DNA of 64,000 nucleotides from Leucobacter ruminantium (GTDB lineage Bacteria; Actinomycetota; Actinomycetes; Actinomycetales; Microbacteriaceae). Below the pieces are notes generated by a model. It had not been told where the DNA came from, did no database searches, and worked only from the letters and a program-made list of their open reading frames with translations. Of this stretch, positions 26,223 to 52,587 are shown piece by piece. A program made the translations under genes and the position numbers. Positions within the stretch are counted from its first letter, which is position 1; each line of letters opens with the position of its first letter. The stretch lies in contig NZ_JAGDYL010000004.1 in the NCBI RefSeq assembly GCF_017565705.1, positions 1-64,000 of the forward strand. Reading direction: 5' to 3'.

Positions 26223-27458
26223 TCAGTTGAGGGGGAGCGAGACGGTGCCGGTCTCGGGCGGTGCCTCGATCGTGCGCCCGCGCAGATCGGGGAGCCAGCG
26301 CATGGTGGCCGCTGCGACGATCGCGCAGATGAGGAGCAGCCCGGACGACACGAGGACGGCTCCGTGCGCGCCGGCCGCGTCGATCGCGACGCCCGCGAGC
26401 GCCGAGCCCGTGGCGACGCCCACGAGCTGCCCGGTGCCGATCCAACCGTAGGCCTCTGCCGTCTCCGAGAAGCGCACGGTGACGCCGATGATATTCGATA
26501 CTGCGGCGAAGGCCGGGGCGGTGCCGAGGCCGCCGATGAAGAGCACGGCGCTCAGCCACCACATGTCGAGGCTCACGAGGCAGGCGAGGGTGCCCGCCAG
26601 CACGACGAGGATGCGCAGCAGCAGCGACCACGGCCGCATCTCGCGGTGCCCGATGAGCAGGCCCCCGACGAGGGATCCTGCCGCGAACAGCGCCAGCACG
26701 ATGCCGGATTCGATGCTGCCGTGCCCACCGGAGTGGCCCGGACCGCCTCCGGCGAACGCGGCGACGACACCCGCCTCGATCGCGGAGAACGAGGCGACGA
26801 AGAAGAAGCTGATCACGGTCGTGATGACCACGGTCGGGTAGCGCAGCACCGCGCCGAAGCCGCGCTTCGGCGGGTCGAGACGCACGGTGCCGACGGCGGG
26901 GCTCATGATGAACCAGGCTCCGCCGAGCACCATGAAGGCGGCTGCGACTCCGAGGCCGACGGCGGTGCCGAACTGCGAGGAGACGAAGACCGCGACGACC
27001 GGCCCCGCGACCCAGATGAGTTCCTGGGCCGCGGCGTCGAGGGAGAAGAGGGCGGAGAGCTGGGTGGACGGCACGAGACGCGGATAGAGCGTGCGCACCG
27101 CGGGCGTGACGGGCGGCGTCGTCAAACCGATGAGCGCTGCGATGCCCGCGACGATCGCGAGCGGAAGGTGCACGACCGCGATCGTGATGAGCAGCACGCC
27201 GCAGACCAGCGAGGTCGCGCCGAGCACCGGCCGCATGCCCCAGCGGCCCATGAGCCTGCTGCTCAGCGGGCCGGAGACCGCCTGCCCCACGCTCTGCGAG
27301 GCGAGCACGACGCCGGCAGAGGTGTAGTCGCCGTAGCCGAGCTCGATGTGCAGCAGCAGGATGATCGACAGCATCCCGAACGGGAACCGGGCGGTGAGCT
27401 GAGAGGCGATGACTCGGAAGACACCCGGATTCCGTCCCAGATCACGATAAATGCCCAT
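26223..27458 (-). CDS. Major facilitator superfamily transporter
   Basis: 411 residues, about 12 hydrophobic segments. The start LGRNPGVFRVIASQLTARFPFGMLSIILLLHI and the loop SSRLMGRWGMRPVLG fit the MFS motif A region between TM2 and TM3. Probably a drug/metabolite efflux or uptake carrier; no substrate clue in the neighbourhood. ATG 27456-27458 has no ribosome site but lies 6 nt after TATACT, the best -10 match in the window, so it is leaderless. Confidence 0.88.
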   Translation of the reverse strand: MGIYRDLGRNPGVFRVIASQLTARFPFGMLSIILLLHIELGYGDYTSAGVVLASQSVGQAVSGPLSSRLMGRWGMRPVLGATSLVCGVLLITIAVVHLPLAIVAGIAALIGLTTPPVTPAVRTLYPRLVPSTQLSALFSLDAAAQELIWVAGPVVAVFVSSQFGTAVGLGVAAAFMVLGGAWFIMSPAVGTVRLDPPKRGFGAVLRYPTVVITTVISFFFVASFSAIEAGVVAAFAGGGPGHSGGHGSIESGIVLALFAAGSLVGGLLIGHREMRPWSLLLRILVVLAGTLACLVSLDMWWLSAVLFIGGLGTAPAFAAVSNIIGVTVRFSETAEAYGWIGTGQLVGVATGSALAGVAIDAAGAHGAVLVSSGLLLICAIVAAATMRWLPDLRGRTIEAPPETGTVSLPLN

Positions 27459-32190: not shown

Positions 32191-33549
32191 TCAGTTGGTG
32201 AGCTTGTTCAGCAGATCGTCGCCCGAGTCCGTGCTGTCGCCGCGCGAGCCGGAGGCCGCAGCGACATCGCCCGGCCGGTTGGCGTCGGCGACGGCGCGCT
32301 GGGAGGCGACCACCGCGTCCTCGATCATGGTCTCGCCCCGCTCGAGCGCCTGCAGGTTGCGCGCCCGCAGCGCGCGTCCCGCCTTGTCGGCCGCGACGAT
32401 CGCGCTGCACTGGGCCTTGACCGAGTCGATCACGGTCCAGATGGTCTCCTCGGTGACGATGGGAGCCTGCGCCGCGTTCGCAACGGCCTCGACCGACTTC
32501 GCCGTCTCCGAGAACGCACCCTGGATGAGCTTGTTCGTGCCCTCCTGCACCGCCTCGCCGAGCTCGGCGCCCTGCTTCGCGAACACCGCCTGCTGCCACA
32601 TCGCGAGCGACTGGCGGGCAGAGGGGAGACCCATGGTGCGGAACGCCGCGAGCCGCCTGCGCAGCGCGAACGTCGTCACGATGAGGTTGCGAGTGGCGGG
32701 CGCGTGGGCGAAGCCGAGGAAGAACTGCGAGCGCCAGTCGGACCAGGTCTTCTCGGTCTCGGAGAGCACGAAGGCGAGGTTGCTGTGCACCTCGCGCAGC
32801 TCGCTCACCGAGATCGTCTCGCCCTTGTACTCGACCGACTCCGACCCCGACGATTCCGCCGACCGCAGGGCGGCGTCGGCCTCGTCGAACTCCTTGCGCA
32901 GCTCCTCGATGACCTGCTCGAGCGCCGCGAGCACGGCCACGACGTCGTCCATGTGCGCGAGCGTCTGCTTGTGCAGCAGCTGGCCGCGCGAGATGTTGTC
33001 GGCGAGCGCCGACTCCATCTCCTGCAGCTTGATCTCGGCGAGGTCGATCTTGTCGGTGATGGGCTTCGACTCGCGCACCATCGTGGTCAGCGTGTAGCGG
33101 CCCTTCTTGAACCAGCCCACGATCGAGTTCACGGCCTCCTCGATCTTGGGAGAGCGCCACTTCTTCTCGAAGCCGTCCATCTCGCGCAGCATGTCGTTGA
33201 CGATCACGTCGGCCTCGGGCACCTTGATGTCGCGCTGCGCCTCGAGCAGCTGCACCGACGCGCTGTTCATCTTCTGCATGATCGGGCCGCCGAAGGTGAC
33301 GATCTGGTTCACGTCGTCGATGAACTTGCGTGCGAGCGCCGGCGCACCCTTCTGCAGGTCCGAGAGCTGCTTCTCGGTGAGCAGGCTGCGGAACTTGAAC
33401 ACCGCGTCCTCAGGGCGGGCGACCTCGACGTCGCCCTGCGAGGTCCGGGCGATCGCGGCTTCGAGCGGGGTGCCCTGCACCTCGGGTGCCTGCGTGTCGC
33501 CCGGCTCCATCAGCTCGGCGAAATCCACTGCGACGGTCTCTTCAGACAT
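32191..33549 (-). CDS. telA: TelA-family protein (toxic anion resistance)
   Basis: 452 residues, mostly alpha-helical with coiled-coil character. Recognisable TelA segments include LMREMDGFEKKW-like MLREMDGFEKKWRSPK, GWFKKGRYTLTTMVRESKPITDKIDLAEIKLQEME, NLIVTTFALRRRLAAFRTMGLPSARQSLAMWQQAVF and ETIWTVIDSVKAQC. Family members are linked to tellurite and cell-envelope stress resistance and co-occur with XpaC-like proteins; the mechanism is unclear. AGGAG is 8 nt before ATG 33547-33549. It is last in a three-gene operon after the vWA lipoprotein and the membrane protein. Confidence 0.9.
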   Translation of the reverse strand: MSEETVAVDFAELMEPGDTQAPEVQGTPLEAAIARTSQGDVEVARPEDAVFKFRSLLTEKQLSDLQKGAPALARKFIDDVNQIVTFGGPIMQKMNSASVQLLEAQRDIKVPEADVIVNDMLREMDGFEKKWRSPKIEEAVNSIVGWFKKGRYTLTTMVRESKPITDKIDLAEIKLQEMESALADNISRGQLLHKQTLAHMDDVVAVLAALEQVIEELRKEFDEADAALRSAESSGSESVEYKGETISVSELREVHSNLAFVLSETEKTWSDWRSQFFLGFAHAPATRNLIVTTFALRRRLAAFRTMGLPSARQSLAMWQQAVFAKQGAELGEAVQEGTNKLIQGAFSETAKSVEAVANAAQAPIVTEETIWTVIDSVKAQCSAIVAADKAGRALRARNLQALERGETMIEDAVVASQRAVADANRPGDVAAASGSRGDSTDSGDDLLNKLTN

Positions 33550-33581
33550 CGATCATCTCCTGTTCGGTGGTCGGGTTGATG

Positions 33582-34637
33582 CTATTTCTCGCGGTCGCTG
33601 TAGACGTCCGACAGCTTGGCCTCGGCGACGGTCCTGATGAGCGAGTCGAGTGCCACCTTGAAGTCGAGGTCGCGCGACTCGTTGACCTGCCTGATGTTCT
33701 CGACGGCCTGGAGGTCGACGGCCTCGACCGCCTGCCGCACCTCCGCGATACGGGCCTCGGGACCGCTCCAGTACTGCGGGTTCGCCATGATGTCGCCGTA
33801 ATAGTCATCGTCGAGCGCCTTGTGCAGCTTGGTCAGCGTGTCCTTGTACTGCGCCTGCAGCAGCCGGATCTGCTGGTCGGTGCCGCGCTTGCGCACGCGG
33901 ATGAAGAGCTCGGAGAGGTGCTGGGCGAGGGAGGAGAGCCGGTCGCCGATGTCGGGATACGCGGCGGCCCGCTCGCGCAACCGCTCGATGGCGTCTCTCA
34001 CGACGTCGCCGTCACCGCCGTCGAGCGCCTTGGCGAGCTCCCTCTCGAGGCGCCGGTTCGACGTGATGATGCGCGCACCGCGGGCCCTGCGCCTCCTGGC
34101 GATGATCAGCACCGCGCCGCCGGCCACGACGATCGCCGCGAGGATCGCGATCCCGAGGGCGATGCCGCTGCCGACCGAGCTCCCTCCGCCGCCGTTCCCG
34201 GCGAGATCCTGCGAGACCGCCGCGATGGCGAGACCGCCGTCGGCCTCGCCCTGCGAGTACAGGGCCTCGGCGATACCGGCGCCGTCGCCGTCCGATGCCA
34301 CGGCGAAGCGATCCTTCGCGTAGTCCTCGACGATGATCACGGTGTCCGCGCCGGTCGCGCTCTTGAACTGCGCGGCGAGGGTGCTCGACTGCACGCTCTC
34401 GGCCTGGTCGGGCTGCGGGATCACGACGACGCGCACGCCCTCGGGGAGGGAACCGGCGAGCTCGCCGGCGTTCGAGATCGATGCGCCGTCGAACAGGCAG
34501 ACCGCCCGGTCCCCGCAGGCCTCGACGAGCTGATTCGCGTCGGTGACGGCGAGAGCGGGTGCGCCGCTCGCGAGCACGGCGGCTGAGGCGACCGCGAGGC
34601 CTGCCAGGCCCGCTGTGATGCTCTGAGGAAGTCGCAC
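33582..34637 (-). CDS. Secreted/membrane protein with XpaC-like cytoplasmic domain
   Basis: 351 residues. Signal peptide (ending near GAPALA), an extracellular TPM-like domain (LPEGVRVVVIPQPDQAE; ADTVIIVEDYAKDRFAV), a Gly-rich loop, one membrane helix (SGIALGIAILAAIVVAGGAVLIIA, about 155-180), an Arg-rich stop-transfer segment, then a helical domain (RLERELAKALDGGDGDVVRDAIERLRERA; LDDDYYGDIMANPQYWSGPEARIAEVRQAVEAV) that resembles the XpaC proteins found beside telA. I infer that it carries a signal from the outside to TelA. GTG 34635-34637 has AGGCGG 5 nt upstream; GTG 34641-34643 is an alternative. It starts within 10 nt of the upstream stop. Confidence 0.8.
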   Translation of the reverse strand: MRLPQSITAGLAGLAVASAAVLASGAPALAVTDANQLVEACGDRAVCLFDGASISNAGELAGSLPEGVRVVVIPQPDQAESVQSSTLAAQFKSATGADTVIIVEDYAKDRFAVASDGDGAGIAEALYSQGEADGGLAIAAVSQDLAGNGGGGSSVGSGIALGIAILAAIVVAGGAVLIIARRRRARGARIITSNRRLERELAKALDGGDGDVVRDAIERLRERAAAYPDIGDRLSSLAQHLSELFIRVRKRGTDQQIRLLQAQYKDTLTKLHKALDDDYYGDIMANPQYWSGPEARIAEVRQAVEAVDLQAVENIRQVNESRDLDFKVALDSLIRTVAEAKLSDVYSDREK

Positions 34638-34646
34638 GGTCACCGC

Positions 34647-36461
34647 CTAGAAGTTGTTCATGACCGACTGGAAGGTCTCGGTGATCTTCGCGGGATCAGT
34701 CGCGTCGAAGACCTGCCCGCCCGATGCGCGAGCGAGCTTCGCGAGCGCCTCGACGTCGGCGCTGCTCGAGTAGGCGATCGCGAAGATGCGCACCGGCTTG
34801 CGGTTGCCGCCCTCCTTCTGATCGGCGTTGATCTTCTGCACGAGGGTGTCGAGTCGAGTCGCCGAGTCGGTGTCCTCGCCGTCCGAGAGCACGACGATCG
34901 CGTTGATGCGGCCCTCTTCGGCGTGGGCCTTCATGTAGTCGTAGGCCTCGGAGATCGCGTCGTACATGGGGGTGCCCGCGCGCTGACTGTTCGCCAGGTC
35001 GGCGATGTCGGACTGCAGGCCCTCCTTGTCGCCGCCGAGCGCGCTGAAGGGGCGCACGACTCCGATGCCGTTCACCCGTTCGCCGTCGATCTCCGTGGTG
35101 AGGCCGGTGGTGAACGCCCACACGCCGATCTCGTCGGTTGACCGCACCTCGCCGAGCGTGGTCGACGCGCCCTCGATGGCGCCGTCGAGGCGGGTCTTGC
35201 CGTCGCCGATCGACTCGTCCATCGACCCCGAGATGTCGATGAGCTGCAGCACGGCGGAGGGCTTGCGGATCGTGGCCCACTGGTCGATCGCGGCCGACAC
35301 CACCTCGGGCGCGGGCTGGGGGAGCGTGACCGCGGGCTGCGCAGGGTCGATGCCCACATCGGAGTTCAGGTACTCGCTCACGTCGATGCCGTCGTCGAGC
35401 GGGCGGAAGCCGTACTTCGGCAGCTCCTGCTGCGCCTCGGCGGTATGGAGGAACTTCACGAAGGCCTCTGAGGCCTCCTGCTGCTCGGGAGTGACCCAGT
35501 CGGCGTGCAGCACGACGGCGGGGTTGTCGCTCCACATCGAGCCGCCGCTCGGATAGATCGCGACGAGCTTCTCGTCGGGCGGGGTGAGCTGTTCGCCCGG
35601 CTGCACCGTGTGCGAGTCGGGATTGCCCAGATTGTAGTTGTAGAGCGAGGTCTCCTCGAGCGCGACGGCGCTCACGTAGTTCGAGCCGCTCCCCGAGGTC
35701 TTGTCGGCGAGGTTCTGCAGCACCTTGCCCGTCGTGTCGCCGTAGTGGATGGCGCCCGACTCGAATACGCGCGAGAAGTCCTGGGCGGCGGCGACGTCCG
35801 CCGTGGTCAGGTCCTGAGACTTGCCGGAGGCGGCGTAGGCCTGCATCAGCAGCATCGACATGCCGGTGGTCGAGCTGTTCGGGTTGGTCTTGGCGATCTT
35901 GAACGACCCCCACATGGGCTTGCCGACGGCGCCCCAGCCGTCGGGGCTCGCGATCAGATCGTGGATCTCGGGGATGCCGATCTGCTTGCCCGGGTATCCG
36001 AGAGCCTTCGCCATCGACTCGGGCATGCCGAACACGATGGGGGTCTTCGCGAAGCTCTCGGCGTTCGCGACGACCTTCTCGCCGGCGATCGAGGCGACGC
36101 GATCGGTCCACACGGTCGAGGCGGGCGACCACACCGACGGGGCGGTGTCGTCGCCGAGGGCCCAGGTCTTCGTCGAGTCGGAGAGGTATTCGGCCGCGCG
36201 GCCCGAGGCCACGTTGACGGGATGCACGGTGGCGCAGCTGCCGAGCGCGTCGTGCTCGGAGGACTCCTTGAACTTCTTCCCGAGCTCCTCCATCAGGTTC
36301 ACCTTCTCGGAGGAGGTCGCGACGACCACCGGCGTGCAGCCGTCCGAGCCCATGCCGCCCTGCCCGCCGCCCGCCGAGCAGCCGGTGAGTACGAGAGCCG
36401 AGGCGGCGATGACCGCTGCGGCCGTTCTCGTCAGCTTGCGATACGACGCGCCACTCATCAC
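34647..36461 (-). CDS. Lipoprotein fusing a solute-binding domain with a von Willebrand A domain
   Basis: 604 residues. Lipobox LTGC (Cys28) anchors it outside the membrane. Residues about 40-390 form an extracellular solute-binding-like domain (VVVATSSEKVNLMEELGKKFKE; VWSPASTVWTDRV; TGMSMLLMQAY; TAEAQQELPKYGFRPLDDG). Residues about 400-600 form a von Willebrand A domain with an intact MIDAS DISGS (about 408-412), later NAIVVLSDGEDTDS. No permease genes are nearby, so it is unlikely to be part of an ABC importer. It is first in an operon with a membrane XpaC-like protein and TelA. The start is GTG 36459-36461 or the adjacent ATG, with GGGAGGA upstream. Confidence 0.88.
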   Translation of the reverse strand: MMSGASYRKLTRTAAAVIAASALVLTGCSAGGGQGGMGSDGCTPVVVATSSEKVNLMEELGKKFKESSEHDALGSCATVHPVNVASGRAAEYLSDSTKTWALGDDTAPSVWSPASTVWTDRVASIAGEKVVANAESFAKTPIVFGMPESMAKALGYPGKQIGIPEIHDLIASPDGWGAVGKPMWGSFKIAKTNPNSSTTGMSMLLMQAYAASGKSQDLTTADVAAAQDFSRVFESGAIHYGDTTGKVLQNLADKTSGSGSNYVSAVALEETSLYNYNLGNPDSHTVQPGEQLTPPDEKLVAIYPSGGSMWSDNPAVVLHADWVTPEQQEASEAFVKFLHTAEAQQELPKYGFRPLDDGIDVSEYLNSDVGIDPAQPAVTLPQPAPEVVSAAIDQWATIRKPSAVLQLIDISGSMDESIGDGKTRLDGAIEGASTTLGEVRSTDEIGVWAFTTGLTTEIDGERVNGIGVVRPFSALGGDKEGLQSDIADLANSQRAGTPMYDAISEAYDYMKAHAEEGRINAIVVLSDGEDTDSATRLDTLVQKINADQKEGGNRKPVRIFAIAYSSSADVEALAKLARASGGQVFDATDPAKITETFQSVMNNF

Positions 36462-36786: not shown

Positions 36787-36789
36787 ATG
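36775..36789 (+). promoter_or_regulatory. Leaderless promoter of the GNAT-AAA+ gene
   Basis: TATGGT (36775-36780), six bases (TGAAAC), ATG. No ribosome site. Confidence 0.6.
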
Positions 36790-38067
36790 GGACGCATTCA
36801 CATCCGCGAGTTTCACGACGACGACCTCGACGCAGTGGTGCGGCTGTGGTGGGAGGCGAGTTCCTCCTCGGAGCAGCCGGTCTACTCGCTCGCCGAGGTC
36901 ACGGCTTCCTGCCGCGAGGATCACGCCGTCGTCGCGGTGCGCGGCAACGAGGTGGTCGCCGCGGCCGTGGGGCGCGCGGCGCACGCCCAGGGGTGGGTCG
37001 TGTTCTTCGGTGTGGCCGAGGACGCCCGCTCCGAGAACGTCTCGGGCGCGCTGCTCGACTCCCTGGAGCGCAAGATGGCGCCGCTCGGCCTCTCGACGCT
37101 CTCCGTGCTGATGCCCGAGGGCAGCCGCATCGACCTGCTCACCTCGAACGGCTTCCAGCTGCGGCACAGCCTGCGCTACCTGGAGCGCCAGATGCCCGTG
37201 CAGCGGCGCGAGCTCGATCTGCTGAAGGACGTCGGCGGGCGCATCCTGCCGCGCCACCTGTGGCAGAACGTGGCCGGGATGCGGCACGAGAAGCAGCTGC
37301 TCGAGGAGCGGCTGGTCGCCCCGCTCGCGCAACCCGAACTCGCCGATCGCTACGGTGTCGTCCCGCCGCGGGCCGTCATGCTCTTCGGGCCTCCCGGCAC
37401 CGGCAAGACGACCTTCGCGAAGGCGGTGGCCTCGCGGCTCGACTGGCCGTTCGTCGAGGTGTTCCCGTCGCGGCTCGGAGACGGCAAGGCGTCGATGGCG
37501 GCGTCGTTGCGCAGTGTGTTCGAGCGCATCGGGGAGCTCGAGCACGGGGTCGTGTTCATCGACGAGGTCGAGGAGATCGCCTCTCAGCGCAGCGACCCGC
37601 CCACACCGACCCAGGGCGTCACGAACGAGCTGCTGAAGATCGTCGCCGACTTCCGCAGCCGCGAAGGGCTGCTGCTCGTCTGCGCCACGAATTTCGTGCG
37701 GGGTCTCGACGCTGCCTTCATGCGGCACGGCCGCTTCGACTACGTGCTGCCGATCGGGCTGCCCGACGCCGACGCCCGCGAGGCGATCTGGCGGCGCTAC
37801 GTGCCCGCCGAGGTCGCCGGAGGGATCGACTTCGCGATGCTCGTCGCGCGCAGCGAGGGGCTCACGCCCGCGGACATCGAGTACGCGGCGCGGCGCGCGT
37901 CGCAGGAGGCGCTGGCCCGCGCACTGCGGGGAACCGGGGAGAGCGGGGCTCCCGCGGATCTCTCGACCGGCGACTACGCCGCTGCGCTCGAAGTGACGCG
38001 CGCGACGGTCTCGGACGAGCAGCAGGCCTCGTTCCTCGAGGACATCGAGCTGCTCGCGCGGCTGTAG
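36787..38067 (+). CDS. GNAT acetyltransferase-like domain fused to an AAA+ ATPase
   Basis: 426 residues. Residues 1-135 look like a GNAT fold: IHIREFHDDDLDAVVRLWWEA start, beta strand DHAVVAVRGNEVVAAAVG, a degenerate acetyl-CoA motif (VAEDARSENVSGALLDSLE) and the closing GFQLRHSLRYLERQM. Residues 160-426 are an AAA+ domain of the FtsH/Cdc48 type: Walker A GPPGTGKTT (201-209), Walker B VVFIDE (255-260), sensor CATNF (299-303), arginine region MRHGRFDY (312-319) and sensor-2 helix LTPADIEYAARRASQEA. The ATG appears leaderless. Targets are unknown. It lies opposite the TelA operon and upstream of a nuclease-helicase. Confidence 0.85.
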   Translation: MGRIHIREFHDDDLDAVVRLWWEASSSSEQPVYSLAEVTASCREDHAVVAVRGNEVVAAAVGRAAHAQGWVVFFGVAEDARSENVSGALLDSLERKMAPLGLSTLSVLMPEGSRIDLLTSNGFQLRHSLRYLERQMPVQRRELDLLKDVGGRILPRHLWQNVAGMRHEKQLLEERLVAPLAQPELADRYGVVPPRAVMLFGPPGTGKTTFAKAVASRLDWPFVEVFPSRLGDGKASMAASLRSVFERIGELEHGVVFIDEVEEIASQRSDPPTPTQGVTNELLKIVADFRSREGLLLVCATNFVRGLDAAFMRHGRFDYVLPIGLPDADAREAIWRRYVPAEVAGGIDFAMLVARSEGLTPADIEYAARRASQEALARALRGTGESGAPADLSTGDYAAALEVTRATVSDEQQASFLEDIELLARL

Positions 38068-44351: not shown

Positions 44352-44948
44352 TCAGTGGCGGGTGGTCGGGTCGGTCGCGGTGCTCGCGGGGCACCAGGTG
44401 CGGAGCGAGCGGATGAGGTCGAGGATGCGGTCGGGCTCTCCGGCCGGGAACGCCGTCGCCTTGAAGACGGGAGGGATGAGCACCCACACGTACGAGCCGC
44501 CCATGGGCACGAGGCTCAGGCGACGGGCGTGCTTCGGGCCGCTGACATCGGCCTTGATCAGGTCGATGCGGCCGAGGTGCTTCTCGATGCGCCGGTTCAT
44601 GGAATCGAGAACGGGAGAGGCGAGGGATCCCTGCCGGTCATCGCGGCGCACGAAGCGCGCTCCCTGCCTGCCCCTGTGCGAAAGTTCGAGGTCGGCGGGC
44701 ACGGGGGTGTCGGCGGGGAGCTCGGTCGTGATGCGCAGGTTGTAGACCCGGGAGAAGACGTAGTTGCCCGGATCGTAGCCGAGCGTGAGCACGATGCCGT
44801 CGCGCGTGCGCACGGTGACGCTGGTCTGATCGGAGCCCGTGACCGCGCCGAACTGCTCGGCGGTGCGCCGCAGCGCGGCGCGGGCGCGGTCCACGATGGG
44901 GCCGGCGCCCGCGAGCGCGTCGCGGCGGGTGCGCTGAGCCTTGCTCAC
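44352..44948 (-). CDS. Hypothetical protein between permease and alcohol dehydrogenase
   Basis: 198 residues, no signal peptide or membrane helix. A helical N-terminus (DALAGAGPIVDRARAALRRTAEQFGAV) is followed by beta-rich segments (TSVTVRTRDGIVLTLGYDPG, YNLRITTELPADTPVPADLELSHRGRQGARFV) and GGSYVWVLIPPVFKATAFPAGEPDRILDLI near the end. I do not recognise the family with confidence. GTG 44946-44948 overlaps the permease stop (GTGA) and has GGGAG 6 nt upstream, so it is translationally coupled to the permease. It may help transport or metabolise the same substrate. Confidence 0.82.
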   Translation of the reverse strand: MSKAQRTRRDALAGAGPIVDRARAALRRTAEQFGAVTGSDQTSVTVRTRDGIVLTLGYDPGNYVFSRVYNLRITTELPADTPVPADLELSHRGRQGARFVRRDDRQGSLASPVLDSMNRRIEKHLGRIDLIKADVSGPKHARRLSLVPMGGSYVWVLIPPVFKATAFPAGEPDRILDLIRSLRTWCPASTATDPTTRH

Positions 44949-46381
44949 GCGTCGCTCCCGAGCCGCCCGTCTGCCGCGAGGGCGTCGTCGTACTCGTGGC
45001 CGAGGTCCTCGGAGCGCACGACGATGTTGCTCTGCGTGTGGGTGAGGTCGGTCGGCGCGAACAGCGGCAGACGGTTGCGCTTCAGCCAGATGATCCCGAA
45101 GAGCGCGATCGCTGCGAGCACGACGCCTGCGCTGCCCCACACCACGAGACGCTGCGACATGTCGGGCACGATGAAGATGATCAGGTACGCGCACGACGCG
45201 ATGCCGAGGATCTGGGGCACCGGGTAGAGCGGCGTCTTGAAGGGCCGCTTCGCCTCGGGGTAGCGGCGGCGCAGCACGATGACGTCGATCTGGGCGATGA
45301 TGTAGCTGAGCAGCCAGGTGACGCAGGCGATGCTGATGAGGTTCAGGATCAGGTCGATGCCGCCCTGGGCGAAGGTCGAGTAGAGCAGCACGGCGGCCAT
45401 GCAGCCGGCGGTGACGAGCATGCCGGCCCAGGGGACGCGGCTGCGGCGGCTGATCTTGCCGAACCACTTCGGCAGCAGGCCCTCGTTCGCGAGGCCGTAG
45501 AGCATGCGGGGGATCGCGGCGAGGTAGGAGTTGCCGGTCGAGAAGGAGGCGAGGATCGTGACGACCGTCATGACCAGGCCGCCGGTCGCGCCGAAGATCG
45601 CGGTAGCGCCCACGACGTGGGGGATCGAGGAGGTCGCCATCTCGGCGAGGTCGGCGTAGCGGGTGGCACCCCAGCCGAAGAGCACGTCGACGAGGAAGAT
45701 GGTGCAGACGCCGACGACCATCGCGAGGGGGATGTTCTTCCACGGCTTCTTGACCTCTTCGGCCAGCGGCGCGACGAATTCCATGCCGATGTAGAGCCAG
45801 ATCGCGACCGCGCCCATCGAGGCGAGGGTGCTCCAGTCGGTCGCGAGGAGCGGGTTGTCGACGCGCTCGCCCGTGGCGAAGCCGAAGACGCCCGCGAGGC
45901 CCATGATCGCGAGGATGCCCATCATGCCGAAGACGACGGGGATCTGCACGCGGGCGAAGATATCGACGCCCGAGATGTTGAGCGTGAGCAGGATCGCGAG
46001 CAGGATGAACGAGAAGGCCGGGGCCGGGAAGCCCGTGAGCGATTCGAAGGAGTCGCCTGCGACGAGCAGCTGGGTGCCGCCGTCAGCCGAGACGAGCACG
46101 AGGTAGCCGCCGAGCACCGCGATGATCGCCATGAGGCGGCCGAGCGCTGGGAGAGTGTACTCGCCGACCATGCCGCCTCCGGGGAGCATGGAGGCGAGCT
46201 CGCCGTAGGAGATGGCGACCATCGTGATGATCACGAGGCCGATCAGCGCCGGGATGGCGAAGGCGAGGCCGCCGGTGCCGAACCCGTTGCCGAGAGAGAC
46301 CATCGCGGTACCCGACACCACGAGACCTGTGGAGGCCGCGTAGGCCGCTCCGAATCCGAGACTCCGCTTGAGTTTTGTCAT
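44945..46381 (-). CDS. APC-superfamily permease
   Basis: 478 residues, about 12 membrane segments. Features typical of the family: GFGAAYAASTGLVVSGTAMVSLG in TM1, SYGELASMLPGGGMVGEY, and EEVKKPWKNIPLAMVVG after TM6; soluble C-terminal tail of about 45 residues. The substrate is unknown; its operon partners suggest an amino alcohol or amine that is later handled by a dehydrogenase. ATG 46379-46381; AAAGGGG is about 12 nt upstream, a loose ribosome site. The upstream region carries repeated GACAGAA sequences near a PucR-type regulator gene. Confidence 0.9.
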   Translation of the reverse strand: MTKLKRSLGFGAAYAASTGLVVSGTAMVSLGNGFGTGGLAFAIPALIGLVIITMVAISYGELASMLPGGGMVGEYTLPALGRLMAIIAVLGGYLVLVSADGGTQLLVAGDSFESLTGFPAPAFSFILLAILLTLNISGVDIFARVQIPVVFGMMGILAIMGLAGVFGFATGERVDNPLLATDWSTLASMGAVAIWLYIGMEFVAPLAEEVKKPWKNIPLAMVVGVCTIFLVDVLFGWGATRYADLAEMATSSIPHVVGATAIFGATGGLVMTVVTILASFSTGNSYLAAIPRMLYGLANEGLLPKWFGKISRRSRVPWAGMLVTAGCMAAVLLYSTFAQGGIDLILNLISIACVTWLLSYIIAQIDVIVLRRRYPEAKRPFKTPLYPVPQILGIASCAYLIIFIVPDMSQRLVVWGSAGVVLAAIALFGIIWLKRNRLPLFAPTDLTHTQSNIVVRSEDLGHEYDDALAADGRLGSDA

Positions 46382-46442
46382 TGAGTTATCGGCCCCTTTG
46401 CCCGATCGTGAGAATGTGTCAGCTGTCAGCATGCACCTGGAC

Positions 46443-46569
46443 GACAGGAATCGCACTCGACACAATGTTGTTTTTTGCGACCTTCATCGACAGAATGACG
46501 GATATCTGAAGGTGAGGGATCCGACGAACTGTTGAATCGGCGCGTCGTGTCGAGACAGAAGTGACAGAA
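46443..46569. promoter_or_regulatory. GACAGAA repeats upstream of the permease operon
   Basis: Three exact GACAGAA heptamers (46489-46495, 46554-46560, 46563-46569) and one GACAGGAA variant (46443-46450) within 130 bp, all in one orientation. The last two are 9 bp apart. They lie between the PucR-type gene and the permease and may be its half-sites; this is inference. The region 46382-46616 also contains a T6 run near 46470. Confidence 0.45.
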
Positions 46570-46616
46570 GGCGCAGAGACGGCCGGCGCGGTAGAGGTGC
46601 AGGGGGGGGCGACGGC

Positions 46617-48203
46617 TCAGTCGCCGCGGAGATACCGCAGGGCCAGCGCCAGCTCGGCCCGCACCTGGTAGTCGTCGAGGTCCGATGAGGTCAGCGACGC
46701 GATCTGCTCGAGCCGATGGGCGAGCGTGTGCCTGTGGATGCCGAGCTCGCGGGCCGTCGGCACCTGCCTGCCGTGCTGCTCGAGCCAGATCCGGAGCGTG
46801 CGCACGAGATCCGTGCCCTGATCGCGGTCGCTCGCGGTGAGCGGCCCCAGCAGGCGCCGGGCGACGTGCGCCGCGTCCGAGGCGTCGATGAGATCCGCCA
46901 CGCCCTCCCGCCAGATCTCGGAGAACGCGGTCACGCCGGGCTCGCCGCGCCTGAGCCCGGTCTCCGCCGCCTTCTTGGCCTCCTCGAGGGCGAGGCCGAG
47001 ATCCTCCCACCGCTCGCAGCGAGACCGGCCGATCACGAGGCCGAACGGACGGATCTGCTCCAGGAAGCGCTCGGCATCGGCCTCGCGCACGAGCACCGCC
47101 GCGTCGCTGCGGTACTGCGCGAAGAAGGCAGGCAGCTCGTCGTTCAGCTGGAGCGAGTCGAACGCGGGCAGCAGCCGCGCCGCCTCGAAGTGCTGCGGGA
47201 TGCAGATGAGCGCGACGAGCGGCGGCTGGGGCAGCGGCCCCCACACGCTCTCGACGATGTGCCGCGTCACCTCGACGCTGCCCGAGAGCACGAGCTGCAG
47301 CAGCGCCTCGCGCAGGGTGCGGTGCAGGCCGGCGAGCGCCTGATTCTGCTCGAGCGACACGCTCACGAGCGCGAGCACGCTCGAGAGCACATTGCGGGAG
47401 ACATCGTCGAAGCCGCGGCTGAGCGTCAGCACGAGCATGCCGCTCGGATCGCCGGCCTCTCCGAGCAGCTGCAGCACGGCCTCGATCTCGGGCGTCGCCT
47501 GCGTCGAACGGAAGCGCTGCCCGCTCTCGAGTGCGAGCTGCACGATGGGTGTGAGCTCCGCCTCCGAGATGCGCGGTCCGTCGGGAGCCTCGACAAGGGT
47601 CACGGGGCGACCGAGGGGATCGTAGAGCGCGACGCCGCAGCCCAGCTGCCTCGCCGTCTCGTGCAGCGTGGCGTTGAGGCCGTCGCGGCGGGTCGCGGCG
47701 TTCGCGATCGCCTTCTGCGCGCGGAGGGACCGGGTGTAGCGCTCGGTCTGATCGCGCTGCAGCACCCGTGCGGCCTCCTGCAGCAGGTCCATGAAAGAGA
47801 TCTCGTAGGGCACGTCGAAGAGGATCAGGCCGTGCCTGGCGCAGGCGCGCGCGAGCTGTCTGGGCACGCCCCGGTGCACGACGTCGCTGCCGAAGCCGAT
47901 GCCGATCACCCCGTGCGCGGCGACGAGCGCCGCGTAGTCGTCGTAGATGCGGTCGAGACGCTCGGGCGAGACGCGCACCTCGGCGATCGAAGAATCCGCA
48001 GCCTCGACGATCGGGAACTGCCATCCGAGCGTGAGGATCACCTCGGCCGGACCGAGGAACGGGGTCGGATCGATGAGATCGGTGGCGTGCAGCCACTCGA
48101 ACTCCTCGTCGAAGGCGCTCGTCTCCGAGGAGCCCGCGTCTCCGGTCACCAGCCGGAGCCTCAGCGAGGGGTTCTGGAGCAGCTTGCGCAGGCTGAGCGA
48201 CAC
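46617..48203 (-). CDS. PucR-family transcriptional regulator
   Basis: 528 residues. An N-terminal PucR domain (about 1-130: LRKLLQNPSLRLRLVTG, WLHATDLIDPTPFLGPAEVILTLGW, GIGFGSDVVHRGVPRQLARACARHGL), a central GGDEF-like/GAF-like region and the C-terminal HTH_30 helix-turn-helix (DLVRTLRIWLEQHGRQVPTARELGIHRHTLAHRLEQI). Such proteins usually activate genes for purine, amine or amino acid use when the substrate is present. GTG 48201-48203, only 9 nt after the preceding gene. It probably controls the permease operon downstream. Confidence 0.92.
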   Translation of the reverse strand: MSLSLRKLLQNPSLRLRLVTGDAGSSETSAFDEEFEWLHATDLIDPTPFLGPAEVILTLGWQFPIVEAADSSIAEVRVSPERLDRIYDDYAALVAAHGVIGIGFGSDVVHRGVPRQLARACARHGLILFDVPYEISFMDLLQEAARVLQRDQTERYTRSLRAQKAIANAATRRDGLNATLHETARQLGCGVALYDPLGRPVTLVEAPDGPRISEAELTPIVQLALESGQRFRSTQATPEIEAVLQLLGEAGDPSGMLVLTLSRGFDDVSRNVLSSVLALVSVSLEQNQALAGLHRTLREALLQLVLSGSVEVTRHIVESVWGPLPQPPLVALICIPQHFEAARLLPAFDSLQLNDELPAFFAQYRSDAAVLVREADAERFLEQIRPFGLVIGRSRCERWEDLGLALEEAKKAAETGLRRGEPGVTAFSEIWREGVADLIDASDAAHVARRLLGPLTASDRDQGTDLVRTLRIWLEQHGRQVPTARELGIHRHTLAHRLEQIASLTSSDLDDYQVRAELALALRYLRGD

Positions 48204-48212
48204 GCGTTCTCG

Positions 48213-48686
48213 CTAGCGCTCGAAGCGGATCGGAGTTCCCGCCGCGACGCCGATGCGGCGCTGCAGTCCCTCGTCGACGGCGGCGGCCTGCTCCGCATCC
48301 GCGTCGGCGACGATGCCGAACTCGTCGAGCACTGCGGACTCCTCGCCGTCGAGCCCCAGCACGAGGCCCGTCACCGAGTCTGCGAGCGGGCCCTCGAGCG
48401 CGGCGACGGCGCGGCTCGCCGCCGAGCGCACGGCCCGTGCGAGCGCCGCGGATCCCTCGCCTCGCACGGGAGCCTCGGCGTCGCAGTAGACGACGCCGTC
48501 ACCCGTCACGGCCGAGGCCGTGACCCCGTCCGCACTGCGCCGCACCCGTACCTCCAGCACCCCGCTCGTGGAGCGGGGCGGCACGGTCGAGAAGGGCAGC
48601 GGAATGCCCGAAGGGGCGTCACCGCGACCGCGGGCCTCGTGGCCGTGGTCGGGTGACGCCCCTCCGAAGGAGAACTTCAGATCCAT
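48213..48686 (-). CDS. Hypothetical protein between ald and the PucR gene
   Basis: 157 residues. A His/Gly/Pro-rich N-terminus (about 1-40) is followed by one compact domain: GVLEVRVRRSADGVTASAVTGDGVVYCDAEAPVRGEG, a long helix SAALARAVRSAASRAVAALEG, and VTGLVLGLDGEESAVLDEFGI. The pattern recalls the first part of an actin/FGGY-kinase-like fold, but nothing catalytic is visible. ATG 48684-48686 lies 7 nt after TAACCT, whose first three bases are the ald stop codon. Gaps to both neighbours are about 10 nt, so it may also be read through from ald. Function unknown. Confidence 0.75.
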   Translation of the reverse strand: MDLKFSFGGASPDHGHEARGRGDAPSGIPLPFSTVPPRSTSGVLEVRVRRSADGVTASAVTGDGVVYCDAEAPVRGEGSAALARAVRSAASRAVAALEGPLADSVTGLVLGLDGEESAVLDEFGIVADADAEQAAAVDEGLQRRIGVAAGTPIRFER

Positions 48687-48699
48687 GAAGTCCAGGTTA
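48684..48699 (-). promoter_or_regulatory. Probable near-leaderless promoter built on the ald stop codon
   Basis: Minus strand: TAACCT (48694-48699; the TAA is the ald stop), seven bases, ATG. One base longer than the other leaderless cases. Confidence 0.4.
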
Positions 48700-49824
48700 C
48701 GCCTGCGCGGCCAGCACGTCCTCCAGCGGCGACGACGCGAGGTCGGGGAACGCGAGCGAGACGCCGTGGTTGGCGATGACGCCCTCGTGCGCGTTGAGGC
48801 CCTTCGCGAGCGAAGCGTCGTCGTTCAGCGCCTTGACCCAGCCCTTGTCGGCGAGCGCGACGACGTAGGGGAGGGTGGCGTTCGTGAGCGCCGCGGTCGA
48901 GGTCTCGGGCACCGCGCCCGGCATGTTCGCCACGCAGTAGTAGATCGAGTTGTGCACCTCGAAGGTGGGATCGTCGTGCGTGGTGGGGCGCGAGTTCTCG
49001 AAGCAGCCGCCCTGGTCGATGGCGATGTCGACGAGCACCGAGCCGGTCTTCATCTGCGCGACCATCTCGTCGGTGACGAGCTTCGGAGCCTTCTCACCCG
49101 GGATCAGCACGGAGCCGATGACGAGATCGGCCTCCTTGAGCGCCTCGGTGATGTTGTGCGCGTTGGAGGTGCGGGTCTGGATGCGGCCGTTGAACTCGTC
49201 CTCGAGCTGCTTGAGGCGGGGGAGTGCGATGTCGATCACGGTGACCTCGGCGCCCATGCCGTACGCGATGCGCGCGGCCTGCTCACCGGCGGCGCCGCCG
49301 CCGATCACGACGACCTTGCCGCGGCGGGTCGCGGTGACGCCCCCGAGGAGGATGCCGCGGCCGCCGTTGGCCTTCATGAGCGAGTACGCGCCGACCTGCA
49401 CGGAGAGGCGGCCCGCGACCTCGGACATGGGGGCGAGGAGCGGCAGGCCGCGGTTCGGCAGCTGCACGGTCTCGTAGGCGATGGCCGTGGTGCCCGACTC
49501 GAGTACGGCCTCGGTCAGCTCCTTGTCGGCGGCGAGGTGCAGGTAGGTGAAGAGCACCTGGCCCTTGCGGAGCTTGTCGTACTCCGAGGCGATGGGCTCC
49601 TTGACCTTGAGGATCATGTCGGAGTCGGCCCAGACGCCCTCGGCGCCCTCGACGATCGTGGCGCCCGCTGCGGCGTACTCGTCGTCGGTGATCGCGGATC
49701 CGAGGCCGGCGCCGGACTGCACCAGCACCTCGTGGCCGCGGCGGGTCAGCTCGAAGACGCCGGCCTGCGTGATGGCGACGCGGTTCTCGTTGTTCTTGAT
49801 CTCGGTGGGGATACCGACGCGCAT
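48697..49824 (-). CDS. ald: Alanine dehydrogenase
   Basis: 375 residues. Interconverts L-alanine and pyruvate plus ammonia with NAD. Substrate-site residues known in the family are present in place: Arg15 (NENRVAI), Lys75 (LKVKEP), His96 (TYLHLAAD), and the Asp in VDIAIDQGG. The NAD motif is [21 protein letters not shown] lies 8 nt before ATG 49822-49824. It is divergent from an Lrp-family gene exactly as ald and aldR are in mycobacteria, and forms the left edge of an alanine gene cluster. Confidence 0.96.
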
Positions 49825-50027
49825 GATGTGCTCCTACTTTGCAACGGGTGGAATTCGTCGTCGACGATTCCGGCTCTGTCACCCCTCGCGCGAGCCGGCG
49901 GAGGCGAGCGTCGCTGCGGAGGTGCTGCACTGATTGTGCAGTATATTCGTCATCTTCGAGAGAATAGTGAATAGTCTGCGGCAACTCGGTTATATTAGAG
50001 GGATCCCTTGCGGAAGGAAGATCTGAA
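49825..50027. promoter_or_regulatory. Divergent ald / Lrp promoter region
   Basis: 203 bp. For ald, TATACT (minus strand, 49940-49945) is a good -10 box, implying a leader of about 110 nt. For the regulator, TATATT (49991-49996) followed by GGAAGGA fits. GACGAATAT (minus strand, 49943-49951) overlaps the ald -10 box and recurs upstream of the alanine symporter. The region is clearly AT-richer than its surroundings and is the likely binding site of the Lrp protein. Confidence 0.6.
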
Positions 50028-50519
50028 ATGACCGATGGTTCGAAGAATCTGCGCCCCGATACCGAGCTCGATGCCATCGATCGGAAGATCGTGGAGGAGT
50101 TGCAGTCGAACGGCCGCATCACGAATGCCGAGCTGGCCGAGCGCGTCGGTGTCGCGGCCTCCACCTGCATCGCCCGCGTGCGCGGGCTCGTCTCCCGCCG
50201 CATCATCACCGGCTTCACCGCGACCGTCGACCCCCGGGCCATGGGCCTCGAGCTGCAGGTGCTCGTGAGCGTCACCGTGAGGTCCGGCGCCCGGCAGCGC
50301 ATCACCGAGCTCAGCGAGGAGCTGCGATCCCTCCCCGAGGTGATGCAGCTCTACTTCCTCGGCGGCGTCGAGGACTTCATCGTGCACCTGGCGGCACGCG
50401 ACTCCGACCACGTGCGCGACTTCGTGACCGAGAACCTCTCGGCGCACCCTGCGGTCTCGTCCACCCGCACCAGCCTCGTCTTCAGCCACTATCAGAACCC
50501 GGTGCGCTCGGTCTCCTGA
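50028..50519 (+). CDS. Lrp/AsnC-family regulator (AldR-like)
   Basis: 163 residues. Helix-turn-helix (about 15-70: LDAIDRKIVEELQSNGRITNAELAERVGVAASTCIARVRGL) and RAM effector domain (VLVSVTVRSGARQRITELSEELRSLPEVMQLYFLGGVEDFIVHL). Divergent from ald, so by analogy to mycobacterial AldR it likely senses alanine and controls ald. GGAAGGA precedes the ATG. The symporter gene follows on the same strand. Confidence 0.92.
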   Translation: MTDGSKNLRPDTELDAIDRKIVEELQSNGRITNAELAERVGVAASTCIARVRGLVSRRIITGFTATVDPRAMGLELQVLVSVTVRSGARQRITELSEELRSLPEVMQLYFLGGVEDFIVHLAARDSDHVRDFVTENLSAHPAVSSTRTSLVFSHYQNPVRSVS

Positions 50520-50757
50520 GTCCGGAGACCGTTCGCCCGCCCCCGTTCGCATTTCCTCCGCTCCGGAGGTCGTATTCGCTGCGCCTGTCGATGAAGATTC
50601 GGCGGTCGTGGTTTTCGTAGACGAATATGCGCCACCGCCGTGCTTGGTCCACAGCTGAATCTCAGGAAAGTCTAGACTCGAAACGTGGCGCCTCGGCGCC
50701 TAACTCCCTTGTCCAGCACGTCGCAATGTGGCGAAAGCAGAATAGGAAACTCACCTC
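50520..50757. promoter_or_regulatory. Leader region of the alanine symporter
   Basis: 238 bp. A small hairpin CCTCCG-CTC-CGGAGG at 50555-50569 may end the regulator transcript. GACGAATAT at 50620-50628 matches the ald promoter motif. It lies between CGGCGGT and ACCGCCG segments that could pair. TAGACT (50673-50678) is a possible -10 box, giving a leader of about 73 nt that contains GGCGCC-TC-GGCGCC. I see no glycine riboswitch core. Confidence 0.45.
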
Positions 50758-52260
50758 GTGGAAACGTTCCAGGGAATTCTCGACTGGCTCAGCGGAATCA
50801 TCTGGGGTCCCTTCGTCCTCATCCCGCTCCTCTTCCTCACCGGCCTCTATCTGACCGTCAGGCTCGGAGGCCTCCAGTTCCTCCGGCTCGGCTCGGCGCT
50901 GAATCTCGGCATCATCCGTCGCAGGGATCCCGGAGCCAAGGGTGGCGACATCTCTCAGTTCCAGGCCCTCACCACCGCACTCGCAGCCACTGTCGGCACG
51001 GGCAACATCGTCGGCGTCGCCGCGGCCATCGGCATCGGCGGCCCCGGCGCGCTGTTCTGGATGTGGGTCACGGGCGTGCTCGGCATGGCCTCGAAGTACT
51101 CCGAGGCGTTCCTCGCCGTCCGCTACCGCACCATCGATTCGAAGGGCGAGCGCAACGGCGGTCCGCAGTACTACCTCGAGCGCGGCATCAGGGGGCCGCT
51201 GGGCAAGATCCTCGGCTGGTCGTTCACCATCTTCACGGTGCTCGCCTGCTTCGGCATCGGCAACATGACCCAGGCCAACTCGATCTCGGCGAACGTCGAG
51301 AACAGCTTCAACGTGCCCACCTGGATCACGGGTGCCGTGCTCACGGTGCTCGCCCTCGTCGTGCTCGTCGGCGGCATCAAGTCGATCGGGCGCGTCACCT
51401 CCGCGTTCGTGCCGATCATGATCGTCTTCTACGTCGCCGCCGCCCTGTACATCCTGTTCGTGAACATCGGCGACGTCCCCGCCGCCTTCGGGCAGATCTT
51501 CACCGACGCCTTCACCGGCACCGCTGCGACGGGAGGCTTCCTCGGCTCGATCATGATCATCGCGGTGCAGTACGGCTTCGCCCGCGGCATCTTCTCGAAC
51601 GAGTCGGGCATGGGCTCGGCGGCGATCGCCGCCGCTGCCGCGCAGACCACCCATCCCGTGCGCCAGGGCCTCGTCTCGATGACCCAGACCTTCATCGACA
51701 CCATCATCGTCGTGACGATGACCGGCCTCGTGATCATCACCACGGGCACCTGGGACGACGTGGACCCGGAGACCGGGGAGCAGGTCTCGTCTGCGCTCAT
51801 GACCGGTCAGGCCTTCTCGCACGGCCTGCCGGGCGAGTGGGGCCACTGGGTGGTCACGCTCGGCTTGATCATGTTCGCCTTCTCCACCATCCTCGGTTGG
51901 TCGTACTACGGCGAGCGGGCGCTCGAACGCATCTTCGGGCGCCCCTCGGTGATGCCGTTCCGCATCGTGTTCTGCCTCGTCGTCTTCATCGGCGCGACGA
52001 CGCAGCTGAGCATCGTGTGGTCGTTCTCCGACGTGATGAACGGTCTCATGGCGATCCCGAACCTGATCGGACTCGTCATCCTCTCGGGGCTCATCGCGCG
52101 GGAGACGCGAGCGTACCTGAAGTTCGATCCGAAGCTCGTCGCGACCGAGGCCGAGATCGAGGCGGCACTCAAGGATGAGCCCGGCTACCAGGAGTGGCGT
52201 GCGCAGGAGGTCGAACTCGACGCCCGAGGCGAGGGGCATCGCACGAACTCGCAGCCGTAG
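50758..52260 (+). CDS. Sodium:alanine symporter (AGCS family)
   Basis: 500 residues, about 10-11 membrane helices. AGCS landmarks: FLTGLYLTVRLGGLQFLRL, FQALTTALAATVGTGNIVGVAAAIGIGGPGALFWMWV, the RNGGPQYYLERG-type segment, and ARGIFSNESGMGSAAIAAAAAQTTHPVRQG. Imports alanine or glycine with Na+. GTG 50758, with AGGAAA about 9 nt upstream. Neighbouring ald, alanine racemase and a D-Ala-type permease fit alanine as the substrate. Confidence 0.94.
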   Translation: METFQGILDWLSGIIWGPFVLIPLLFLTGLYLTVRLGGLQFLRLGSALNLGIIRRRDPGAKGGDISQFQALTTALAATVGTGNIVGVAAAIGIGGPGALFWMWVTGVLGMASKYSEAFLAVRYRTIDSKGERNGGPQYYLERGIRGPLGKILGWSFTIFTVLACFGIGNMTQANSISANVENSFNVPTWITGAVLTVLALVVLVGGIKSIGRVTSAFVPIMIVFYVAAALYILFVNIGDVPAAFGQIFTDAFTGTAATGGFLGSIMIIAVQYGFARGIFSNESGMGSAAIAAAAAQTTHPVRQGLVSMTQTFIDTIIVVTMTGLVIITTGTWDDVDPETGEQVSSALMTGQAFSHGLPGEWGHWVVTLGLIMFAFSTILGWSYYGERALERIFGRPSVMPFRIVFCLVVFIGATTQLSIVWSFSDVMNGLMAIPNLIGLVILSGLIARETRAYLKFDPKLVATEAEIEAALKDEPGYQEWRAQEVELDARGEGHRTNSQP

Positions 52261-52281
52261 CGATGCGGCGATTCTCGACGA

Positions 52282-52316
52282 CGAAGGCCGGGGCGGTTCG
52301 ATCGTCCCGGCCTTCG
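52282..52316 (+). terminator. Terminator of the alanine symporter gene
   Basis: CGAAGGCCGGG (52282-52292) and CCCGGCCTTCG (52306-52316) form an 11-bp stem with a 13-nt loop, 21 nt past the stop. Confidence 0.6.
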
Positions 52317-52439
52317 CCGTGCGCTCGACCCTCAGAACATTCGGCGCGGGCACGCAAGCTTCGCTGCGATTCGAAGAAAATTCGGAGATAGGGGTGGATC
52401 CTGAACTTCAGCCGGGATGTTCGCTCACCCGTCGCAGTT

Positions 52440-52490
52440 TCCGCCCCAGGGCGGACATATACTTTCTACGCTTCCGCCGACCGGGCGGAA
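52440..52490. promoter_or_regulatory. Twin palindromes flanking a -10 box upstream of the CycA-like permease
   Basis: TCCGCCC-CA-GGGCGGA (52440-52455) and TTCCGCC-GACCG-GGCGGAA (52472-52490) share the arms TCCGCC/GGCGGA. Their centres are about 33 bp apart, roughly three helical turns, and TATACT (52458-52463) lies between them. This looks like a two-site operator over a promoter. The regulator is not identified. Confidence 0.6.
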
Positions 52491-52587
52491 CACGACGCCT
52501 CGGTGTCGAAGCGATGGCCCCTCCCACCACCGTCGGGCGGGGATCTGTTCGCAATGATGCGGTTTACAGAAAGGCACGCCTCACCAC

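Follow-up and report, generated by a model that had tools for sequence, protein, structure and literature searches.

A TelA operon with a solute-binding/vWA lipoprotein in Leucobacter ruminantium, and the alternation of TelA with PspA beside one family of putative sensors

The sequence analysed here, referred to as the window, is a 64,000 nucleotide stretch of Leucobacter ruminantium (contig NZ_JAGDYL010000004.1 of RefSeq assembly GCF_017565705.1, positions 1 to 64,000). It contains a three-gene operon encoding a lipoprotein in which a solute-binding protein (SBP) domain is fused to a von Willebrand factor A (vWA) domain, a membrane protein with a TPM fold, and a TelA family protein. Related SBP-vWA proteins are found with TelA in some loci and with PspA in others, and this alternation beside one SBP-vWA sensor family is the interesting part. 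The operon coordinates agree with those in an earlier note on this DNA, made from the sequence alone. The features of the operon are as follows:

32191-36461, minus strand: three-gene operon, tightly packed, in the order gene 1, gene 2, gene 3
34647-36461, minus strand: gene 1, lipoprotein of 604 aa, SBP_bac_11 and vWA fusion (Pfam, homologues, own-genome match)
36378-36380, minus strand: lipobox cysteine C28 (LTGC), identified by eye in the sequence
35403-36326, minus strand: solute-binding domain, residues 46-353 (SBP_bac_11, PF13531, 66.9 bits vs a cut-off of 25, E 3e-18)
34671-35243, minus strand: vWA domain, residues 407-597 (PF00092, 36.5 bits vs 23.8, E 7.3e-9)
33582-34643, minus strand: gene 2, 353 aa, signal peptide, TPM-fold domain, transmembrane (TM) segment and helical domain (signal peptide and TM segment by eye)
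34182-34556, minus strand: TPM-fold domain, approximately residues 30-154 (structure model; outside by predicted topology)
33591-34040, minus strand: helical domain, approximately residues 202-351 (structure model; cytoplasmic by predicted topology)
32191-33549, minus strand: gene 3, TelA family, 452 aa (PF05816, residues 77-410, 56.7 bits vs a cut-off of 30)

The spacing had been given as about 10 and 32 nt. The second value is correct, and the first gap, between gene 1 and gene 2, is 3 nt (9 nt with an alternative GTG start). The proposal of a single operon stands, and as several families share this gene order, the arrangement is not due to chance. Promoter and terminator scans found nothing, and were judged uninformative here.

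The Pfam matches and the conservation of the metal ion-dependent adhesion site (MIDAS) confirm that gene 1 combines a solute-binding domain and a vWA domain with intact MIDAS in one lipoprotein. The MIDAS residues D409, S411, S413, T497 and D527 are each conserved in 93 of the 96 rows of the alignment, which includes near-copies, and the lipobox column holds C in 63 of the 96 rows, with gaps in 8. With SBP_bac_11 followed by vWA and MIDAS in one protein, gene 1 belongs to the fusion family and is a full-length member of the NCBI family named 'substrate-binding and VWA domain-containing protein', from which it does not differ at the protein level, though the operon context varies. The earlier note saw in the operon its main candidate for an undescribed envelope-sensing system, to be refuted if the fusion were absent elsewhere. 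The fusion does occur elsewhere and is not particular to this locus, both domains being present in all 120 listed among 589 gene 1 homologues. As it is widespread and already named in databases, the fusion is not new, and is ordinary for these bacteria. In the phylum, 47 of 296 genomes match SBP-vWA at E <= 0.001, many through the vWA half alone. The vWA domain is not of the TerY type (gene 1 vs TerY, just 13.5 bits over 28 residues), and a PDB sequence search with gene 1 gave no match.

For gene 2, no Pfam family was found above cut-off. The structure model (mean pLDDT, the predicted local distance difference test score, 80.7) shows a TPM fold, then a long helix across the presumed membrane segment, then a helical domain. 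The TPM-like outer domain suggested previously is thus present as a predicted fold, with its outer placement dependent on the predicted topology. The Pfam TPM profile did not match gene 2 (E up to 0.1), nor does it appear in the 25 listed of 57 families for 46 relatives. An 'XpaC-like' inner part had also been proposed, and this found no profile support: XpaC (PF10112) is absent from gene 2, from the window genome and from the same 25 listed families. Homology to XpaC was examined by a profile comparison that used 8 distinct XpaC sequences. The top alignment places YYLPTTVKLLDA of XpaC opposite QYKDTLTKLHKA. However, we do not claim homology, as the reversed-alignment control was near-equal (21.5 vs 19.7) and the tool misses the pair formed by the TelA type of the window (window-type TelA) and canonical TelA. 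A PDB search with the gene 2 alignment gave no match.

Gene 3 had been called TelA, correctly: its PF05816 match exceeds the curated cut-off and spans positions 8-327 of the 332 in the profile, making it a divergent TelA. The protein is predicted to be long-helical, and the matches of its structure model (pLDDT 68.5) were helical bundles only. Profile comparison by hhalign, which also misses the window-type/canonical TelA pair, gave no signal of sequence kinship between TelA and PspA. PspA was not among the 50 VIA rows for the TelA model, which is uninformative either way. A PDB search with the gene 3 alignment gave no match, and viral contigs gave none to the window TelA in a search sensitive to close relatives only.

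A pattern scan of GTDB species genomes, biased to close relatives, recovered 31 loci, 24 actinobacterial and 7 from Chloroflexota. The trio is found in the same order in 11 of the 24 actinobacterial loci (L003-L008, L010-L013 and L021). Ten others (L015-L020 and L022-L025), all from Microbacterium, have SBP-vWA and the TPM protein without TelA in the fetched sequence, and the remaining three (L009, L014 and L026) are cut off. None of the modelled partners was found in the seven Chloroflexota loci, some of which are cut. Sought beside telA elsewhere, as the earlier note had advised, the fusion was found in Leucobacter, Rarobacter, Tessaracoccus, Brevibacterium, Nocardioides and Bifidobacteriaceae, and SBP-vWA adjoining TelA across these groups bears out the link that had been drawn between vWA and TelA. 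Many SBP-vWA genes have no adjoining TelA.

Of 149 genomes searched in the order, six have window-type TelA (alignment A1), and these six are among the 13 that have SBP-vWA (E <= 1e-40). The trio is adjacent in five of the six; in G352, the parts lie near the ends of different contigs. The window-type TelA of G352 (L136, 6698-7996, minus strand) is broken by an in-frame stop codon and a TPM gene adjoins it; L136 has another TPM-type C-half, at the end of the contig. The genus was taken as Leucobacter, and the genus set of 54 genomes, which overlaps the named Leucobacter loci of the pattern scan (five contigs), includes 11 with TelA. Nine of the ten further TelA genes adjoin a TPM protein and SBP-vWA (one SBP-vWA being cut by a contig end), and the tenth adjoins a TPM-type gene at the edge of a contig. 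In Leucobacter celer, the TPM and TelA genes are separated by an additional gene (L003, 10924-12075, plus strand), made up of the helical C-half of the TPM protein and a different N-half that is DUF58-like by eye and has no Pfam match. Extra matches to the C-half of the TPM protein are found similarly in L159 and L157.

Stretches around SBP-vWA and TelA genes were also collected from genomes of the phylum, and the neighbours in the first two batches were clustered with those of the named loci. In all 12 loci L090-L101, SBP-vWA is followed downstream by a TM/helical protein (XPL, no Pfam family) and PspA. An AAA+ gene lies upstream in 11 of the 12, with none in the approximately 5 kb fetched upstream of L093, and several have a second, SBP-like protein in between. 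In L095, Pfam identified PspA (PF04012, E 1.5e-30), AAA with AAA_lid_6, and a weak SBP_bac_11 (25.4 bits vs 25). A TerB-like N-terminus suspected by eye in the L095 AAA protein was dropped, as Pfam shows none. These loci share with the operon a related SBP-vWA (38-42 % identity) and the order binder, membrane protein, inner effector. They differ in having PspA in place of TelA, another membrane protein with no detected TPM domain, the AAA+ gene and often the second SBP-like gene. The first of these differences, the most telling one, could not be read from the window by itself. The binder is thus of one family in the TelA and PspA versions and the effector is different, while the membrane proteins are compared by position and order. 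Two further loci have PspA, L106 (confirmed by Pfam, without detected XPL) and L102 (with a weaker XPL).

Canonical TelA also occurs with SBP-vWA, namely in the four family f5 genomes with TelA (L116, L117, L121 and L149) and in L127, L150 and L151. The last two have the gene order SBP-vWA, XpaC, SBP-like protein, TelA:

L150, 6965-11591, minus strand: SBP-vWA/XpaC/SBP-like/TelA cluster
L151, 4230-8880, minus strand: SBP-vWA/XpaC/SBP-like/TelA cluster

These clusters bridge the XpaC-TelA pair and the SBP-vWA system. In L150, XpaC scores 38.7 bits (PF10112 cut-off 29.8), and SBP-vWA was recognised by a custom hidden Markov model (1e-54), its vWA domain being just below Pfam cut-offs; the L151 XpaC gene, at 22.3 bits, is below the PF10112 cut-off. 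In L118 (7573-10556, plus strand), the gene after canonical TelA belongs to the same AAA family as the one upstream of SBP-vWA in the PspA loci. TelA is above cut-off in 17 genomes of the phylum. SBP-vWA adjoins it in 8 (the window genome, G123, G153, G172, G285, G074, G096 and G116) and does not in another 8 (G233 and G257 judged from 1.5-kb flanks); in G209, TelA lies at the edge of a contig and its neighbour is SBP-like.

A tree of 84 SBP-vWA rows was built by a quick method, with SH-aLRT (Shimodaira-Hasegawa-like approximate likelihood ratio test) support only, a midpoint root and several long branches. Partner labels were taken from the fetched stretches only, and both 'TPM only' and 'none' (31 of the 84 rows, with no modelled partner) include cut loci. 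The window lies in a clade of 32 rows (support 100), comprising 15 with window-type TelA, 16 with TPM only (L009 being cut) and one on a broken contig. A set of 54 rows (support 98) consists of this clade, a 12-row PspA clade (support 100) and a 10-row group made up of the Chloroflexota rows, L103 and the PspA locus L106. Rows with canonical TelA form a separate group of seven (support 100). On this tree at least one exchange between TelA and PspA is needed, its direction depending on the true position of the root.

The distribution of the two effectors was then compared across genomes. PspA gave no match in the window genome (99.4 % complete) in a search that was positive in 9 of 14 control genomes. 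In the order, PspA is above cut-off in 86 of 149 genomes, none of them among the six with window-type TelA vs 86 of the 143 others (Fisher p 0.005, kinship ignored). One of the six, G393, has a 21-bit PspA match, below cut-off. The 143 include G133 and G260, which have canonical TelA and also lack PspA. In the genus, PspA is found in 2 of 11 genomes with TelA vs 29 of 43 without (Fisher p 0.0052, kinship ignored), which divides the genomes into two with both (G434 and G486), nine with TelA only, 29 with PspA only and 14 with neither. For the 45 better genomes of the genus the corresponding numbers are 2, 7, 27 and 9 (p 0.0057). Window-type TelA and PspA thus tend toward mutual exclusion in the genus. 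Four genomes of the same family that have SBP-vWA and TPM without window-type TelA (G237, G280, G378 and G420) all carry PspA outside that stretch.

Taken together, there is about an even chance that the operon is a phage shock protein (PSP)-like envelope-stress module with TelA taking the role that PspA has in the related loci. The more specific proposal, that TelA functionally replaces the ESCRT-III protein PspA, with a conserved SBP-vWA sensor and membrane relay taking either effector after at least one TelA/PspA exchange, is put forward tentatively. The order outer binder, membrane protein, inner helical effector does not differ between the versions with TelA and with PspA. The simplest account would be an outward-sensing module that posts a membrane-protecting effector at the inner face. 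The position of TelA, its partial exclusion of PspA and the reported envelope phenotypes suggest that it may be a membrane-protecting effector. In such a module, the lipoprotein at the outer face would bind a small ligand through its solute-binding domain, in line with the specific ligand sensor that the earlier note proposed, and the vWA domain would dock through its MIDAS metal on the TPM domain of gene 2, depending on the ligand or the state of the membrane. The single TM segment of gene 2 would relay the signal to the inner helical domain, and this would hold or recruit TelA to the inner face of the membrane, stabilising it as PspA does.

Several observations weigh against this interpretation. 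PspA is present in 11 of 16 phylum genomes with canonical TelA; three genomes with SBP-vWA (G298, G335 and G374) carry no window-type TelA and no PspA; these two are also missing from G326, of family f81; and the exclusion statistics ignore relatedness. With PspA in neither the locus nor the genome, the window genome also falls outside a definition of PSP systems by the presence of PspA.

In Bacillus subtilis, the membrane-associated YdjH combines a TPM domain with a long coiled coil and is a conserved partner of PspA in the ydj operon; AAA+ partners of PspA have also been described (PMC11237479). The ydj operon resembles the window operon in having a membrane TPM and coiled-coil protein that partners an inner membrane-stress effector. 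It differs in that the effector is PspA rather than TelA and that an SBP-vWA lipoprotein is unmentioned in the available text; the TPM proteins are likened by architecture only. The same source reports PspA/AAA+ operons with an ABC (ATP-binding cassette) transporter and a solute-binding protein carrying an OmpA domain (PMC11237479). There, too, a solute-binding protein is genomically tied to PspA and AAA+, but, by description, the binder is of the OmpA type and accompanied by the transporter, whereas the binder of the window operon forms a fusion with vWA and no ABC partner was recognised. The XpaC-TelA pair (lmo1966-lmo1967 of Listeria; XpaC/YaaN of B. subtilis) is similar in that a partner gene adjoins a TelA family gene. 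In contrast, gene 2 has a TPM fold and no PF10112 match, and the SBP-vWA lipoprotein is added.

A Listeria TelA mutant is reported to show a 4-fold increase in nisin sensitivity and a 2-fold increase in tellurite sensitivity, XpaC/TelA of Listeria are among the genes raised by a bacteriocin, and the mechanism of TelA was called unknown in 2026 (PMC12791056, citing earlier work for the mutant). In Bacillus velezensis, the TelA-like yceH and pspA share one table of changed genes (PMC8561381). The main text of PMC11237479 contains no TelA, XpaC, tellurium, TerB, von Willebrand or vWA, and a term search of PMC9239133 found all six related terms absent. Among the literature matches listed, which cover few subscription journals and no supplements, no paper deals with SBP-vWA together with TelA or PspA. 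The PSP literature searched ties PspA to another kind of solute-binding protein, and SBP-vWA goes without mention in the available text (PMC11237479). TelA genes are common, including on plasmids, and are named for tellurite; the alternation with PspA provides a concrete hypothesis, that TelA guards the membrane. If this is true, actinobacteria would gain an envelope sensor in which vWA is joined to a ligand-binding domain.

Of the other explanations, oxyanion or metal handling, with the solute-binding domain capturing an oxyanion and TelA conferring tolerance, is unlikely. It is suggested by the family names SBP_bac_11 and TelA; ModA-like SBP families include oxyanion binders, and MIDAS sites bind divalent metal. 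Against this, the PspA-linked loci carry the same binder without TelA, and no Ter protein was recognised among the operon neighbours whose families were looked up, the TerY match to gene 1 being the weak one given above. Disruption of lmo1967 is reported to lead to the 2-fold tellurite sensitivity, but the nisin effect in the same report is larger (PMC12791056).

The AAA+, vWA and TPM proteins could instead assist the maturation of a complex, in the membrane or exported, for which TelA or PspA would serve as scaffold. The AAA family that is found in 11 of the 12 PspA loci, and in L118 next to canonical TelA, is consistent with this, as is the link drawn between TPM proteins and both the repair of photosystem II and the assembly of complex III (PMC11237479). 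A second AAA type is encoded by the divergent neighbour of the operon:

36787-38067, plus strand: GNAT-like N-terminus and AAA+ ATPase (PF00004, 94.2 bits); possible accessory, weak linkage

The GNAT-like part scores 20.1 bits, slightly below cut-off, and a GNAT-AAA gene adjoins the operon in 4 of the 10 further genus TelA loci (two upstream, two downstream and convergent). However, no client gene recurs among 30 neighbour-cluster representatives, and a search of the window genome (without positive control) gave no match to the AAA family found in the PspA loci. We consider an assembly chaperone rather improbable.

Defence against bacteriocins or phages is more doubtful still. The link of Listeria TelA to nisin and garvicin (PMC12791056) would favour it, as would the match of the divergent AAA gene to PADLOC IetA (92.9 bits), but this match is confined to the ATPase domain, and no PADLOC model exceeds 13.5 bits with any of the three operon proteins.

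It is common for SBP_bac_11 proteins to work with importers, and the solute-binding part could feed an ABC importer encoded elsewhere that vWA, the TPM protein and TelA only regulate, as the PspA/AAA+ operons with an ABC transporter and OmpA-domain binder (PMC11237479) might suggest, but this is very improbable: the sole ABC cluster recognised among recurrent neighbours is an ATPase, at differing places in four loci, and another 20 loci lacking both TelA and PspA (two genes per side, judged by eye from the first 110 residues) yielded only a divergent ATPase/permease pair in L140. No linked permease and ATPase were recognised at a fixed place among the neighbours of relatives, and no ABC importer was recognised among the window neighbours with families looked up (only part of the window genes being annotated), in agreement with the earlier note's view that no ABC importer is linked to the operon in a conserved manner. 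Its broader statement that no transporter is nearby does not hold, as an MFS-like gene (under curated cut-offs) lies about 4.7 kb away at 26223-27458. Amino-acid carriers are clustered at 44945-54090 of the window, two APC-like genes (44945-46465 and 52588-54090, both under curated cut-offs) and an AgcS gene (50758-52260, above).

One TelA query matches 601 plasmid records. On an unannotated Subdoligranulum plasmid (L131, 3435-5122, plus strand), an XpaC-like gene is followed by a TelA gene.

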